From positions 1,915,312 through 1,979,311 of the forward strand of contig NZ_CP152020.1 of the NCBI RefSeq assembly GCF_038624605.1: a stretch of 64,000 nucleotides of DNA. Direction: 5' to 3'. The position numbers and the translations under genes are program-made. A model generated the notes under the pieces. That model had not been told where the DNA came from and ran no database searches. It saw only the letters and a list, made by a program, of their open reading frames with translations. Source of the DNA: Psychrobacillus sp. FSL K6-4046 (GTDB lineage Bacteria; Bacillota; Bacilli; Bacillales_A; Planococcaceae). Shown piece by piece: positions 54,501 through 59,154 of the stretch (positions are counted from its first letter, which is position 1; each line of letters opens with the position of its first letter).

Positions 54501-55244
54501 TTACATCATGATACCGCCATCTACTTGTAGTACATGCCCGTGAACATAACTAGATTCATCGGAGGCTAAAAACAAATATGCATTTGCAATATCGCGTGGT
54601 TCTGCTAAACGTTGGAGGGCCACAACAGACTGCATCTGTTCAATAATTTTCTCAGGCATTTTCGCTACCATTTTCGTTAAAGTGAACCCCGGGGCTACAG
54701 CATTGACATTGAGGCCTTTTCTTCCTAGTTCTTTTGCCCATGTCTTCGTCATTCCTACCACCGCAGCCTTTGAAGCAGCGTAATTGGTCTGACCTACGTT
54801 TCCATAAACTCCACTAACGGAGGAAGTATTAATAATTTTTCCATATTGATTTCCTACCATGTATGGAACAACAGCCTGCGTGCAATTGAATACACCTTTT
54901 AGATTTACATCTAACACTCTACTAAAATCTTCTTCCGTCATTTTAGTTAGCATGGCATCACGAGTGATCCCTGCATTATTTATCAAAATATGAATCTCTC
55001 CAAACCGTTCAATCGTTTGGTCCACCATTGCATCAACACTTTTTCGATCTGCCACATCCACTTGGATAAAGAATGCCGAATAACCTTGTTCTCTTAATTC
55101 ATTTTCTAGAGATGTGCCTGCCTGTTGATCGAAATCAGCCAAAACTACTTTTGCTCCTTCTTCAACAAACCGTTGAACAGCCGCGGATCCTATACCGTTA
55201 GCGGCTCCAGTAATAATTGCTACTTTATCTTGAAGTCTCATCAT
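54501..55244 (-). CDS. SDR oxidoreductase, 3-oxoacyl-ACP/acetoacetyl-CoA reductase type
   Basis: This is an NADPH- or NADH-dependent reductase of 3-oxoacyl thioesters. Its 247 residues carry TGAANGIGSAAVQRFVEEGA, NNAGITRDAM, S (TSSVSGVYGNVGQ), YAASKAAV (catalytic Y and K) and the ending HVLQVDGGIMM. It reads like FabG or PhaB. In this operon a catabolic 3-hydroxyacyl-CoA role is as likely as fatty-acid synthesis. ATG 55244 and ATG 55241 are both possible after GAGGGGG. Its start overlaps the stop of an upstream open frame (TAATG). Confidence 0.9.
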   Translation of the reverse strand: MMRLQDKVAIITGAANGIGSAAVQRFVEEGAKVVLADFDQQAGTSLENELREQGYSAFFIQVDVADRKSVDAMVDQTIERFGEIHILINNAGITRDAMLTKMTEEDFSRVLDVNLKGVFNCTQAVVPYMVGNQYGKIINTSSVSGVYGNVGQTNYAASKAAVVGMTKTWAKELGRKGLNVNAVAPGFTLTKMVAKMPEKIIEQMQSVVALQRLAEPRDIANAYLFLASDESSYVHGHVLQVDGGIMM

Positions 55245-55246
55245 TA

Positions 55247-55468
55247 TTTTTCCCCCTCGTATATTAGTAATAAGAGCTCTTTCCGATAGAATTTCCAGTT
55301 GATCCGGACAGCTGGAGGATCTGTTGGATTTCCTATAGGAAGTGGTCGCCTCTTGGCTCCCTCACCCTTTTTATGTTTTACCTGTTTGACCCCTGCTTTA
55401 CCGAGGGAGCCAAAAAGGAAAAGTCTATTTTTAACATGACTAAATAAAGCTGACAGGTGCTTACCTGC
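55247..55468 (-). other. Open frame of 74 codons without a start codon, coupled to the SDR gene
   Basis: Between stops at 55469-55471 and 55244-55246 the minus strand is open for 74 codons but has no ATG, GTG or TTG in frame. It reads ...NRLFLFGSLGKAGVKQV, then RRPLPIGNPTDPPAVRINW, and ends LLLLIYEGEK. The final TAA overlaps the SDR ATG. A perfect inverted repeat TTGGCTCCCTC and GAGGGAGCCAA lies inside (about 55355-55410). It may be the 3' end of a gene cut by the IS110 insertion, or an interspersed repeat that I recall from related genomes. I do not recognise a protein family. Confidence 0.4.
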
Positions 55469-55498
55469 TTATTTGAGTTGCCTAACTTCATATCGTTT

Positions 55499-55544
55499 GG
55501 ACGAAGATTGGAGGATGCTCCATTTCAGTACTTCGTCCTTTTTT
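55499..55544 (+). terminator. Plus-strand terminator ahead of the IS110 element
   Basis: GGACGAAG (55499-55506) pairs perfectly with CTTCGTCC (55531-55538), with an inner GGAG/CTCC stem, followed by TTTTTT. No plus-strand gene ends here. It may shield the element, or end a short RNA. Confidence 0.65.
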
Positions 55545-55561
55545 ATTTCAATCTACTTTTC

Positions 55562-55805
55562 TCTCAGACCGTGCCCATGAGACAATGGAACGGACAAGGT
55601 TGACACAGGAAATAGCTTTTCCCCCTTGCGGGCACTTAGTGCACTGCTTAATAAGCCTGCTACCCATCGTTCATTATGGAAGGTCTAACCACTGGCTGCG
55701 ACGCTGAGGAAGAAGAGAGTGTAGCGCTCATTTTGGTCTTCTTTCACTTTGATTGCTAATAACGAGGCAGACATCGATGATTCTGATGGGCACCCAGGTC
55801 TGAGA
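55562..55805 (+). ncRNA. Predicted bridge RNA of the IS110 element
   Basis: TCTCAGACC (55562-55570) pairs perfectly with GGTCTGAGA (55797-55805), and GTGCCCAT (55571-55578) with ATGGGCAC (55786-55793). Together they make a 17-bp long-range stem with a 3-base bulge that closes about 207 bases of folded sequence (for example CCC/GGG and GCAC/GTGC). IS110-group elements carry their bridge RNA in this place, just upstream of the transposase, where its loops guide target and donor choice. The closing stem is seen; the RNA itself is inferred. Confidence 0.6.
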
Positions 55806-55841
55806 CAATCTTGATTAATCCCACCTTAGGAGGTGATTGGC

Positions 55842-57077
55842 ATGTCACAAATGCTAGTCGGTATCGACGTGAGTTTGCGCTCCCATCATGTCCATTTCAT
55901 GCATGGAGAGGGACATACGCTCGCTGATTTTTCTGTTTCCAATGATACAGAAGGTGCGAACACCTTAATTCAAAAGCTTTTAGGAACAGCGGAAAAAAAT
56001 CAGTGCGAACATATTAAAATTGGATTAGAAGCGACAGACCAGTATAGCTGGCACGTTGCTCATTATTTAAAGAATCAATTGCACAATTATGAACCAACGT
56101 TTCAAACAGCGGTTTATATGTTAAATGCACGTAAAGTATCTCGCTTTAAAAAGGGGTACGATACGTTACCGAAAAACGATCGAATTGACGCCTGGGTAAT
56201 TGCGGATCATTTACGCTTTGGACGTCTGCCACATGAAATGCAAGAAACCTTACAATATGAAGCACTTCGTCGTTTAACACGTACCCGATTCCATCTAATG
56301 CATGAAGTTGCACGTAATAAAACCTACATGATGAACCAACTGTTTTTAAAGTTTAGTGGCCTACGCCAAGATAACCCGTTCTCGAATACATTCGGTACGA
56401 CCAGTCTCGCTGTCATTGAAGAGCTAGATCCGGAAACCATTGCCGAGATGCCTTTAGAAGAACTGGTTGAGTTCTTACAGGAGAAAGGCAAAAAACGTTT
56501 TGCCGAGCCAGAAGAAATCGCTAAATATCTTCAAAAGCTTGCACGTAATTCCTTTCGATTAGACAAGGCCATGGCTGATCCCGTTAACATCTCACTATCC
56601 GTGATTTTAAGTACGATTCGCCATATGGAATCCCAAGTCAAACGTTTGGATAAGGAAATCGAGCGTATGATGAAAGGTTTCACCCAAACATTAACTTCCG
56701 TAAAAGGCATTGGACCCGTGTACGCAGCCGGCTTGCTCGCCGAAATTGGAGATATCAAGCGTTTTGATGACCACCACGCATTAGCGAAATATGCTGGACT
56801 CGTTTGGACACAGTATCAATCTGGCGAATTTGAAGCCGAAAATACTAGCCGGATGCGAACCGGCAATAAATACCTACGGTATTATCTTGTACAAGCAGCA
56901 GATGCGGTACGTAAATATGACACTGAATATAAAGCCTTTTATCAAAAGAAATACCAAGAAGTAACCAAGCACCAACATAAACGCGCTCTCGTCTTAACCG
57001 CTAGAAAACTAGTACGCCTCGTGCATTCGCTACTACGCACGAATCAGCTGTACATACCACCAGAAAGGAGAGACTGA
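55842..57077 (+). CDS. IS110-family transposase (DEDD)
   Basis: This is an RNA-guided recombinase. The N-terminal RuvC-like domain carries the DEDD set: D9 (GIDVS), E63 (GLEATDQYSW), and D113 and D116 (KNDRIDAW). A coiled-coil middle part follows. The C-terminal Transposase_20 domain has SVKGIGPVYAAGLLAEIGD and the Ser-containing YQSGEFEAENTSRMRTGNKY. The frame is intact at 411 residues from ATG 55842, after TAGGAGGTGAT; a slightly earlier in-frame ATG at 55833 precedes that site. The codon pattern is less AT-biased than its neighbours, which fits recent arrival. Confidence 0.93.
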   Translation: MSQMLVGIDVSLRSHHVHFMHGEGHTLADFSVSNDTEGANTLIQKLLGTAEKNQCEHIKIGLEATDQYSWHVAHYLKNQLHNYEPTFQTAVYMLNARKVSRFKKGYDTLPKNDRIDAWVIADHLRFGRLPHEMQETLQYEALRRLTRTRFHLMHEVARNKTYMMNQLFLKFSGLRQDNPFSNTFGTTSLAVIEELDPETIAEMPLEELVEFLQEKGKKRFAEPEEIAKYLQKLARNSFRLDKAMADPVNISLSVILSTIRHMESQVKRLDKEIERMMKGFTQTLTSVKGIGPVYAAGLLAEIGDIKRFDDHHALAKYAGLVWTQYQSGEFEAENTSRMRTGNKYLRYYLVQAADAVRKYDTEYKAFYQKKYQEVTKHQHKRALVLTARKLVRLVHSLLRTNQLYIPPERRD

Positions 57078-57211
57078 GTTAACCAACTCACAACCTTTCA
57101 CCCGTTAAATAACTTCCATTTTTTTCTTTTTTAAAAGCAGAAAAATGAGAGGTTTATTTGGTATGCGCAAAAAGTGTTCATTTGGAAAGTATCACTTAAG
57201 TAATTTCCAAT

Positions 57212-58135
57212 TCATTTCTTTTTTTCGCTTGACATATTACCACTGGGCTTTAAAAATGGTTCGACAGCACTTAGCAATTGCTCCAAATCATCAATTAAGG
57301 GAGAATGGCCACAGTTAACTAAAGGGATATATGTAGCATTGTCACCCAAATCTGCAACGATTTCTTGTGTCATTTGCTCTGAAACTACATAATCTCGATC
57401 TCCACGAATAACAAGAACTGGTATGGTTATATCCTTAGCCTGGTTAGTTCCTTTTGCGGCTCCATTATGCTCTTTACCAATATTAAATATATTTAAGCTG
57501 TGATACACATCAGCTAAATTTCGTTGTGTCAGCATATCGTCTAAATATTCTTCATATAATTGCTCATTCGGTTTACTTTGTGTATAGATTGCAGCATTCC
57601 ATACAGCCCTTAAGCCCTCTTTGTTTTTTGTATCATACAATCCTTGCATCGCCTTCGTTTTTGATGGATCATTCTCGATTTCCTCAATCGTTTGTAGTCT
57701 TTCATTATAGTTAGGCGTGCCATCTGCATTCGTCCCAAAGAATGGATATCCTCTGGTGGATGCTGACGCCAAGAGAACCAGTTTTTCACAATACCCAGGG
57801 CAATCAGCAACGAACTGCATACATACTGCGCCCCCAGTAGACCAGCCGATCAAGTCAAACTTCTTAAGGGAAAGGTGGTCGACAAAACCTTTTAAATCAT
57901 TTGAAAAATCCTTTATCCCATTTACTCGTGTATGATAAGTAGAGCCTCCAAAACCTCTCATATCCATAGCAATTACAGTAAATGAATCATCCAAAGCATC
58001 CATTAGTAGATCCCAATGCTTTGATGACGTCATATTGCCATGAACAAGTACGAGGATCCGCTTACCCCTTGCTCTTTCCCTATAAGTAATTGACTCCCCA
58101 TTTGCCAATGTTACTTTTTGTAATGTCATGTTCAT
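57212..58135 (-). CDS. Alpha/beta hydrolase
   Basis: This cytoplasmic hydrolase probably acts on an ester, lactone or C-C bond. Its 307 residues have the canonical set: oxyanion motif LVHGNMTSS, nucleophile elbow IGWSTGGAV with Ser 99, acid in IRGDRDYVV, and His in VNCGHSPLID. A helical cap lies between residues 125 and 220. ATG 58135 overlaps the KAS III-like stop (ATGA) and follows AAGGGAG. The longer frame from 58159 is rejected. It is translationally coupled in the importer operon, so it probably works on the imported compound or on a product of its CoA pathway. Confidence 0.9.
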   Translation of the reverse strand: MNMTLQKVTLANGESITYRERARGKRILVLVHGNMTSSKHWDLLMDALDDSFTVIAMDMRGFGGSTYHTRVNGIKDFSNDLKGFVDHLSLKKFDLIGWSTGGAVCMQFVADCPGYCEKLVLLASASTRGYPFFGTNADGTPNYNERLQTIEEIENDPSKTKAMQGLYDTKNKEGLRAVWNAAIYTQSKPNEQLYEEYLDDMLTQRNLADVYHSLNIFNIGKEHNGAAKGTNQAKDITIPVLVIRGDRDYVVSEQMTQEIVADLGDNATYIPLVNCGHSPLIDDLEQLLSAVEPFLKPSGNMSSEKKK

Positions 58136-59154
58136 ATATTTCTCCCTTCCATTCCCCATTTAATAACTATTGCTCCCCACGCGTAGCCAATGCCAGCACT
58201 TACTAGAACGACAATATCTCCACTTTTTATTTTCCCTGATTTTTCAGCTAATTCCAATGATATAATTTGATCCATCTGTCCGACGTGCCCATAATCACTT
58301 AAATAAATAGATTGTTCCGTATTCAAACCCAGCTCACCTAGGACATAATCATGTGCAGATCTTTTCATGTGAAGGATGGCAAGATAATCGATATCGTTGT
58401 CACTGTATCCGCTTTTCAAAAGCGCATTCCTAACAACCTTTAAAAAATTGTCCATCGATTTTTGTTCTAGTCTTGCCTTCATACCCTCGGGATCCATTAC
58501 ATCTAATCGATACAAACCATTCTCCAAATGTTCAGGTGATAAAGGTTGCTTAGTTCCTCCAACAGGCACCAATACATCCTCTGAAAAAGAGCCGTCCGTG
58601 ATTATATCCGTCTCTAAAACAGTATTTTTCTCGTAATCTCTTTTTAAAATCATTGCTGCTCCACCTGCACCTAGGTTGAACATGAAGCGCGTCCGATCAT
58701 TTGTATAGTCAATAAAGTCACTGTTTCTATAACCTCCCGCAAGCAAAACTGTTTGGATAGAGGGGTCAGCGAGCATCATGCTCTTTGCAACTTTCATTGC
58801 CATAATTGTTGTTCCACAACGTAGCGCCACATCAAAACCCCACGCGTGAAAGGCGCCAAGCTCTTCTTGAATCTTAATGGCAGCTGTCCAAAGGGGATAT
58901 TCCTTGTGCTCTTCCCCAATATAGATTATTAGATCGATAGATTTGGGATCCACATTTCCTTTTTGCAATGCTTTCTCCGCTGCCCATATTCCCATTGCAA
59001 CTGTATGATCATCTTTCCCTGGAATTGGCTTTTTTGAAATACCCATTTTGTTTTTGACTACTTCAATAGGGAGTTTGGAACGGAATGCGATTTCTTCAGC
59101 AGTCATTACATCTGTTGGAATATATATTCCAGTACTGACAATCCCTATCGTCAT
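58132..59154 (-). CDS. 3-oxoacyl-ACP synthase III-like (thiolase-fold) protein
   Basis: This is a thiolase-fold enzyme that would make or break a C-C bond on an acyl thioester. The 340 residues align with FabH: GIVSTGIYIPTDVMT at the start, C113 in the position of the active Cys (FDVALRCGTTI), H262 for the catalytic His (ILHMKRS, not the usual HQAN), and H290 in YGHVGQMD where FabH has the catalytic Asn (GNTSA). The active-site set is thus C-H-H rather than C-H-N. It is coupled to its neighbours on both sides (ATGA overlaps). It is more likely a special pathway enzyme than a fatty-acid starter enzyme. Confidence 0.88.
   Translation of the reverse strand: MTIGIVSTGIYIPTDVMTAEEIAFRSKLPIEVVKNKMGISKKPIPGKDDHTVAMGIWAAEKALQKGNVDPKSIDLIIYIGEEHKEYPLWTAAIKIQEELGAFHAWGFDVALRCGTTIMAMKVAKSMMLADPSIQTVLLAGGYRNSDFIDYTNDRTRFMFNLGAGGAAMILKRDYEKNTVLETDIITDGSFSEDVLVPVGGTKQPLSPEHLENGLYRLDVMDPEGMKARLEQKSMDNFLKVVRNALLKSGYSDNDIDYLAILHMKRSAHDYVLGELGLNTEQSIYLSDYGHVGQMDQIISLELAEKSGKIKSGDIVVLVSAGIGYAWGAIVIKWGMEGRNI

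Follow-up and report, generated by a model that had tools for sequence, protein, structure and literature searches.

Does the folded non-coding stretch that precedes an IS110-type transposase gene in Psychrobacillus sp. FSL K6-4046 encode a bridge RNA, and if so, to which DNA is this RNA addressed? We examined a window of 64,000 nucleotides (RefSeq assembly GCF_038624605.1, contig NZ_CP152020.1, positions 1,915,312 to 1,979,311 of the forward strand; coordinates below are window positions), in which an earlier note had predicted such an RNA at 55499–55841. Bridge RNAs, the guide logic of IS110 elements, and junction promoters are known (PMC11208160 and PMC11208158, in excerpt). The locus very probably holds a recently active IS110-group element, the left end of which encodes a bridge RNA with a left target guide (LTG) complementary to the Shine-Dalgarno sequence. 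The bridge RNA prediction is supported by covariation of the helix arms and by guides that track the DNA; the Shine-Dalgarno target rule had been missed.

The host genome (3.89 Mb) contains seven copies of the element, identical over 1,999 bases and with different flanks. The stretch common to all copies, 55252–57250, includes target-derived bases, and the ends were set by placing the CT core as in IS621:

55258..57249, plus strand: IS110-group insertion element, 1,992 bp with the CT core included once, from the seven-copy alignment
55252..55257, plus strand: left target CCCC and core CT; the minus strand, AGGGGG, is the Shine-Dalgarno sequence of an SDR-like open reading frame (ORF) at 54501–55244
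57248..57250, plus strand: right core CT, followed by the T of the right target

The ends had previously been sought near 55480 and at 57080–57210, which missed the left end by about 220 bases and the right end by about 40 or more. In a same-species genome (G135), the two sites tested of the seven were both uninterrupted, each with a single CCCCCTT and with 98% and 100% identity over 300 of 300 bases. The longest exact word common to the outer 80 bases of the two ends was 6 bases, a length reached by 232 of 300 shuffles, so no terminal inverted repeats were recognized. The G135 draft also ends inside two element copies (L038 and L039) at contig ends, and the right flank of one of these partial copies matches, at its start, that of our own copy L014.

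The transposase is intact and lies directly downstream of the folded region, as had been noted from the sequence, and the ORF and the domain matches agree on this:

55842..57077, plus strand: IS110 DEDD transposase/recombinase, 411 aa from ATG 55842

The ORF list begins it at GTG 55833, within its Shine-Dalgarno sequence. Both the DEDD_Tnp_IS110 and the Transposase_20 domains are present, with profile scores of 101.4 bits for PF01548 (cut-off 29), 82.1 for PF02371 (21.3), and 255.9 for NF033542 (140). The motifs GID, LEAT, KNDRIDA, and QSG align with IS621 (8wt6) to give D, E, D, and D of the RuvC domain and Ser of the Tnp domain (residues named after the description of IS621 in PMC11208158, in excerpt), the N-terminal stretch alone scoring only 7.4 bits in this alignment. 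These domains, the DEDD and Ser residues, and the lack of terminal inverted repeats place the element in the IS110 group; the features of the IS1111/seekRNA group, a guide RNA downstream of the transposase and subterminal inverted repeats, were not found.

Relatives were collected from 22 loci on genome contigs, from 261 family genomes, of which 12 matched, and from 398 class genomes, of which 23 matched; our own genome is counted in the 12 and in the 23. A pattern search of 30 element families yielded guides for 29, left targets for 28 (54 insertions), and right ends for 29. No guides could be extracted by pattern from L083, no ends from L079, and no right end from G594b; the counts include no left target for L072, where the contig ends, or for L075, with a left end more than 800 nt away. 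Group I comprises 15 members, including our own, with 65–100% protein identity, and group II comprises 14 with 41–51%. Records that were partial, broken, without a left end, or not taken up were excluded (L040–L044, L076, L087, L053, L026, L024, L031, L035, L038, L039, L049, and L051), as were duplicate records of the same copies (L046–L048, L050, L058, L062, L064, and L066). Four named plasmid copies (L143–L146, of 410 records) were viewed only. The left end and LTG were extracted as a pair for L143, in which the last 10 bases are identical, and for L145, the left flank of which is that of L094, and no such pair was extracted for L144 and L146. A pattern scan of viral contigs found no relative.

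The enclosing structure of the predicted RNA is a long helix that closes both loops:

55562..55578, plus strand: 5′ arm of the closing helix, TCTCAGACCGTGCCCAT, from covariation
55786..55805, plus strand: 3′ arm of the closing helix, ATGGGCACCCAGGTCTGAGA, from covariation

The location and the 17 pairs of these arms agree with the earlier note, in which they were called perfectly paired; a 3-nt bulge (CCA) in the 3′ arm makes this wording slightly too strong. Arms were taken at fixed distances from sequence anchors, and partners were exchanged between relatives in 5000 shuffles; L070 and L078, which nearly duplicate L034 and L072, were left out (alignment A2 was made without L089–L091). In group I, the mean energy was −27.5 kcal/mol with the own partner vs. 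−22.7 kcal/mol with shuffled partners (n = 15; 0/5000), and in group II it was −39.9 vs. −24.7 kcal/mol (n = 14; 0/5000); these counts are not clean probabilities because close relatives are mixed in, but the group II stems share little sequence. The helix has 14–21 predicted pairs in group I and 22–27 in group II, and covaries in 29 sequences (our own and 28 relatives, down to 41% protein identity). The proposed check for covariation was therefore positive in both groups. A fold like that of IS621, with no helix closing both loops, is not what the 15 + 14 sequences show; the closing helix thus makes an IS621-type fold less likely and does not lower the likelihood that the molecule works as a bridge RNA. 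The direct repeat TGAGACAAT, pointed out earlier beside both arms, is present at 55578–55586 and 55801–55809, but its 3′ copy is kept in only 3 of the 15 group I sequences, so we regard it as incidental rather than as a functional pair.

A second helix crosses the first:

55594..55602, plus strand: 5′ strand of helix B, from covariation
55806..55814, plus strand: 3′ strand of helix B, ending 13 nt before the transposase Shine-Dalgarno sequence

Helix B pairs ACAAGGUUG with CAAUCUUGA and covaries in group I (−8.2 vs. −5.45, 0/5000; also 0/5000 for the 13 distinct sequences), and more weakly in group II (4/5000 with tight windows and 30/5000 with wide windows). Because one of its strands lies inside and the other outside the closing helix, the two helices together would make a pseudoknot, although it is possible that they alternate instead. 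Against this stands a fold without the closing helix, in which helix B forms and the 3′ arm pairs with segments beside the target guides. This is the RNAalifold consensus of group I, which draws helix B, leaves out the 5′ arm and with it the closing helix, and has two-sided changes in 25 of 57 pairs; helix B, moreover, covaries by itself. However, some rows of the group I alignment have the 5′ arm displaced by one base, no pseudoknot is drawn in this consensus, the arm pairing covaries in both groups, and the RNAalifold consensus of group II has the closing helix. We therefore consider that fold unlikely, and the two folds could also alternate.

Within the closed RNA, the guides were placed according to the scheme of IS621 (PMC11208160, in excerpt):

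55615..55626, plus strand: LTG, GCUUUUCCCCCU, placed by the IS621 scheme and by tracking in relatives
55648..55655, plus strand: right target guide (RTG), UUAAUAAG, with AG as the complement of the core
55688..55697, plus strand: left donor guide (LDG), ACCACUGGCU, matching ACCACTGG of the right end
55757..55767, plus strand: right donor guide (RDG), UAAUAACGAGG, with CGAGG pairing with CCTCG at the left end

The guides thus follow in the order LTG, RTG, LDG, RDG, with the target loop before the donor loop and both encoded in the left end, and the part UUUUCCCCCU of the LTG is the complement of a Shine-Dalgarno sequence. When guides were exchanged among families in 5000 trials, no permutation reached the observed agreement for the LTG with its own left target (5.78 of 8 matches vs. 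4.55 permuted; 27 families), the RTG with its own right target (2.51 of 5 vs. 1.87; 28 families), or the LDG with its own element end (7.11 of 8 vs. 6.03; 28 families). Examples in which guide and flank share the left target are L086 (ATCTCTCCT), L084 (ATCGCTCCT), and L056 (TCGCTCCT); on the right, L082 has CTGCT in both, most others have CTT, and L032, L072, L078, and L089 have CTA in both. For the LDG, guide and element end are alike in L034 (CCGCTAG), L073 (CCGCTTG), L056 (CACAAG), and L091 (CCACTAG). In the RDG, the CGAGG part is replaced by CAAGG in L089 and G523, which have TG at the left end, and by CGGGG in L075; it is unchanged in the others, the left ends of which, like that of L075, have CG. 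On the target side, the flank TATGTCCT of L075, which is outside the left-target counts, resembles by eye the guide CTTGTCCC of that family. The left target matched only partially in, for example, G616, L080, L091, L073, and L025, and two of the four G600 sites differ within CCTCC. Because the targets are host DNA, the tracking by LTG and RTG is not readily explained by common descent. The suggestion that the loop guides should match the DNA at the element ends was thus borne out, even though the ends lay elsewhere than proposed.

This tracking also bears on whether the structured region is a mere 5′ leader that controls translation of the transposase, the protein itself choosing the target. 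The region does end 13 nt before the transposase Shine-Dalgarno sequence, with no terminator seen in between, but its loop segments change along with the flanking host DNA between families, which is unexpected of a mere leader. We judge this explanation very improbable, while the roles of leader and bridge RNA may coexist. The LTG resembles the anti-Shine-Dalgarno sequence of 16S rRNA and could base-pair with the AGGAGG of the transposase gene itself (55828–55836), and guides unlike the 16S anti-Shine-Dalgarno sequence might avoid self-targeting.

To what, then, is the bridge RNA addressed? All seven copies in our genome have left flanks ending in CCCCCT and right flanks beginning with CTT, in one orientation, and in all seven the minus-strand AGGGGG stands 6–7 nt before the start of an ORF of at least 73 codons (ATG in 5, GTG in 1, and TTG in 1). 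In the 28 families with left targets, 48 of the 54 insertions have AGGAG or AGGGG at the Shine-Dalgarno position, 4 have AGGGA, and one each has AGGCA and AGGAA; the AG in these words derives from the CT core, which was a requirement of the search. A qualifying ORF (50 or more codons, or 30 or more when running off the locus) starts 4–15 nt away at 38 of the 54, in 30 of these with ATG. In three of the four named plasmid copies, an annotated gene begins 12 to 14 nt from the left end, encoding a sortase (Enterococcus raffinosus), an AbrB-like protein (Bacillus arachidis), or a hypothetical protein (Priestia megaterium). In 400 kb of our own genome, the octamer [TC]CCCCCTT, which covers all seven own sites and was picked after they had been seen, lies at ORF starts in 13 of 15 occurrences, compared with 17/26 for CCCCCTT, 27/62 for CCCCCT, 103/237 for CCTCCT, and 555/6000 for random positions. 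The corresponding values in the window were 3/7 for CCCCCT, 6/21 for CCTCCT, 3/25 for ACTCCT, 3/32 for TCTCCT, 7/32 for CCTTCC, 19/204 for AAAAAA, 10/96 for GAAGAA, and 418/4000 for random positions. The address alone thus lies mostly at translation starts and can explain the insertion positions. That the element instead inserts widely and persists only just upstream of genes is scarcely credible: insertions at gene starts do spare coding sequence, and most lie there, but all seven own copies sit at CCCCCTT in one orientation, and with such an address no extra selection is needed.

How such an RNA might be expressed is suggested by the joined ends of the element:

57229..57234, plus strand: −35-like TTGACA, at the right end
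55260..55265, plus strand: −10-like TATATT, from boxes in relatives

The arrangement TTGACA-17-TATATT arises only across the circle junction, where the right end is joined to the left end. All 27 families with both ends have TTGACA or TTGACT together with a TAT.AT-like or TATA.T-like box, once TAATAT; because the end searches required TTGA[CT] and GTA, only the remaining bases and the constant distance from the core count as independent evidence. Of 29 right ends, 28 have the CT core where it is expected. Inspection of the right end (57078–57249) by eye shows stretches similar to those in relatives, namely TTCCA, a GAGGTTTATTTGGTATGC-like stretch, and AATTTCCAATT before TTGACA.

Between this junction and the guides lies another structure, which the earlier note had taken for a separate terminator at 55499–55544:

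55499..55538, plus strand: hairpin, probably the 5′ stem-loop of the bridge RNA, followed by T6 and terminator-like in its own subgroup

The hairpin and its T6 are there as described; the reading as a 5′ stem-loop is, however, the more likely, and we hold it with moderate confidence. A strong local hairpin occurs at the matching place in all 15 group I members (mean −21.2 vs. −11.4 kcal/mol, a level that none of 180 shuffles reached), only 8 of these members have a T-run after it (L009, L023, L025, L027, L036, L052, L032, and L033, not L034, L071, L072, L073, L074, L075, or L077), and the 5′ stem-loop of IS621 orthologues is likewise conserved in structure and diverse in sequence (PMC11208158, in excerpt). 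The stem sequence is unrelated in the more distant group I members; most hairpins have two stems and a 3′-side bulge, L075 and L077 differing, and alignment A3 has two-sided changes in two pairs only. A partner shuffle (0/5000) is void as covariation evidence because the best hairpin of each sequence had been preselected, and the shuffled-sequence control above was used in its place. Leader and hairpin together (55262–55548) fold better than shuffles (z −3.45, 1/200 as good), with two-sided changes in 6 of 59 consensus pairs. The leader (55262–55498) has hairpins at about 55283–55327, 55326–55343, 55353–55413, and 55453–55468, and varies widely in length in relatives.

Several results weigh against a bridge RNA addressed in this way. 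As a single sequence, 55545–55832 does not fold with unusual stability (z −1.25, 24 of 200 shuffles as good), and Rfam (E up to 5) gave no family inside the element; its single match, outside the element, was a chance miRNA match. A promoter scan of the inserted form gave one site vs. 3.9 in shuffles, and the T-run after the hairpin 55499–55538 could stop a junction transcript before the guides. The right target of our own copies agrees with the first base of the RTG in 7/7 and with the second in 3/7, and the Shine-Dalgarno position lacks a qualifying ORF at 16 of the 54 insertions. The LDG tracking is the weaker evidence and partly reflects relatedness because it lies within one element.

If the mechanism of IS621 applies, excision would give a circle, the joined ends of which create the promoter, and the transcript would fold into the 5′ stem-loop, the long closing helix, the target loop, and the donor loop. 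Through the target loop, the recombinase would find TTTTCCCC-CT-T-like DNA; the donor loop would hold the element's own ends (ACCACTGG.CT and CTCG), with recombination at CT. Because the LTG is the complement of the Shine-Dalgarno sequence (AGGGGG), insertions would fall just upstream of genes, with the left end toward the gene. Such an insertion would spare the Shine-Dalgarno and coding sequences of the host gene and would sever the gene from its upstream region. The window copy lies between the SDR-like ORF and a hydrolase-like ORF (57212–58159) on the same strand, the stop of which is now within the element, its original last codons having been replaced; read by eye in the joined flanks, the hydrolase frame would extend as far as the start of the SDR-like ORF, and the element thus stands between two genes that would otherwise be neighbours. 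The same genome also contains a distant IS110-type family in four copies (L001–L004), with a 435-aa frame and about 26–27% identity.

Beyond this locus, we tentatively suggest, as a plausible generalization, an IS110 clade across Bacilli whose bridge RNA has a long closing helix and a crossing helix, whose anti-Shine-Dalgarno guide drifts between variants of the Shine-Dalgarno sequence, whose fixed-orientation address lies mostly upstream of genes, and in which the crossing helix couples RNA folding to transposase translation. This would be a natural bridge RNA family with a functional signal rather than one locus as its address, extending a known type of RNA-guided mobile element by a predicted guide RNA aimed at translation-start signals. 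The 29 families, with 17 distinct guide octamers beside natural targets, offer material for calibrating the pairing rules, and the guide RNA, being of a different build, is a test of which features of the IS621 scaffold are important.

In the literature searched, which consisted of partial texts without supplementary lists, no Shine-Dalgarno address and no closed or pseudoknotted bridge RNA was described. The element resembles IS621, as excerpted in PMC11208160 and PMC11208158, in its DEDD and Ser recombinase, CT core, left-end RNA, junction promoter, 5′ stem-loop, target loop followed by donor loop, and short RTG, and in that LTG and LDG pair with the bottom strand and RTG and RDG with the top strand. 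The IS621 RNA is described there as 177 nt long, starting at the junction promoter, with the target loop at nt 34–98 and the donor loop at 110–177. In contrast, both loops here are closed by a helix of 14–27 predicted pairs (17 for the window copy), which a further predicted helix would cross. The LTG begins far from the end, about 360 nt into the element, and has a Shine-Dalgarno sequence as its address. The element shares an RNA-guided DEDD transposase with the IS1111 group, the seekRNA of which is encoded in the non-coding region downstream of the transposase and the members of which have subterminal inverted repeats (PMC11187229, in excerpt), whereas our element carries its guides upstream, and the search for inverted repeats gave none. 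For IS900 of Mycobacterium avium paratuberculosis, translation initiation signals have been reported as the target (in the title of Doran et al. 1997, cited in PMC8141618, in excerpt). IS900 is likewise of the IS110 family, and our comparison with it, by description only, offers a guide-based explanation for such elements at translation starts. The insertion point of IS900 lies between the start codon and the Shine-Dalgarno sequence, whereas here the Shine-Dalgarno sequence stays with the host gene. The element is thus a new member of the IS110 group, in which Shine-Dalgarno targeting has already been reported for IS900, and, as far as we have seen, what is new is the combination of a closed and probably pseudoknotted scaffold with an address of the Shine-Dalgarno type.
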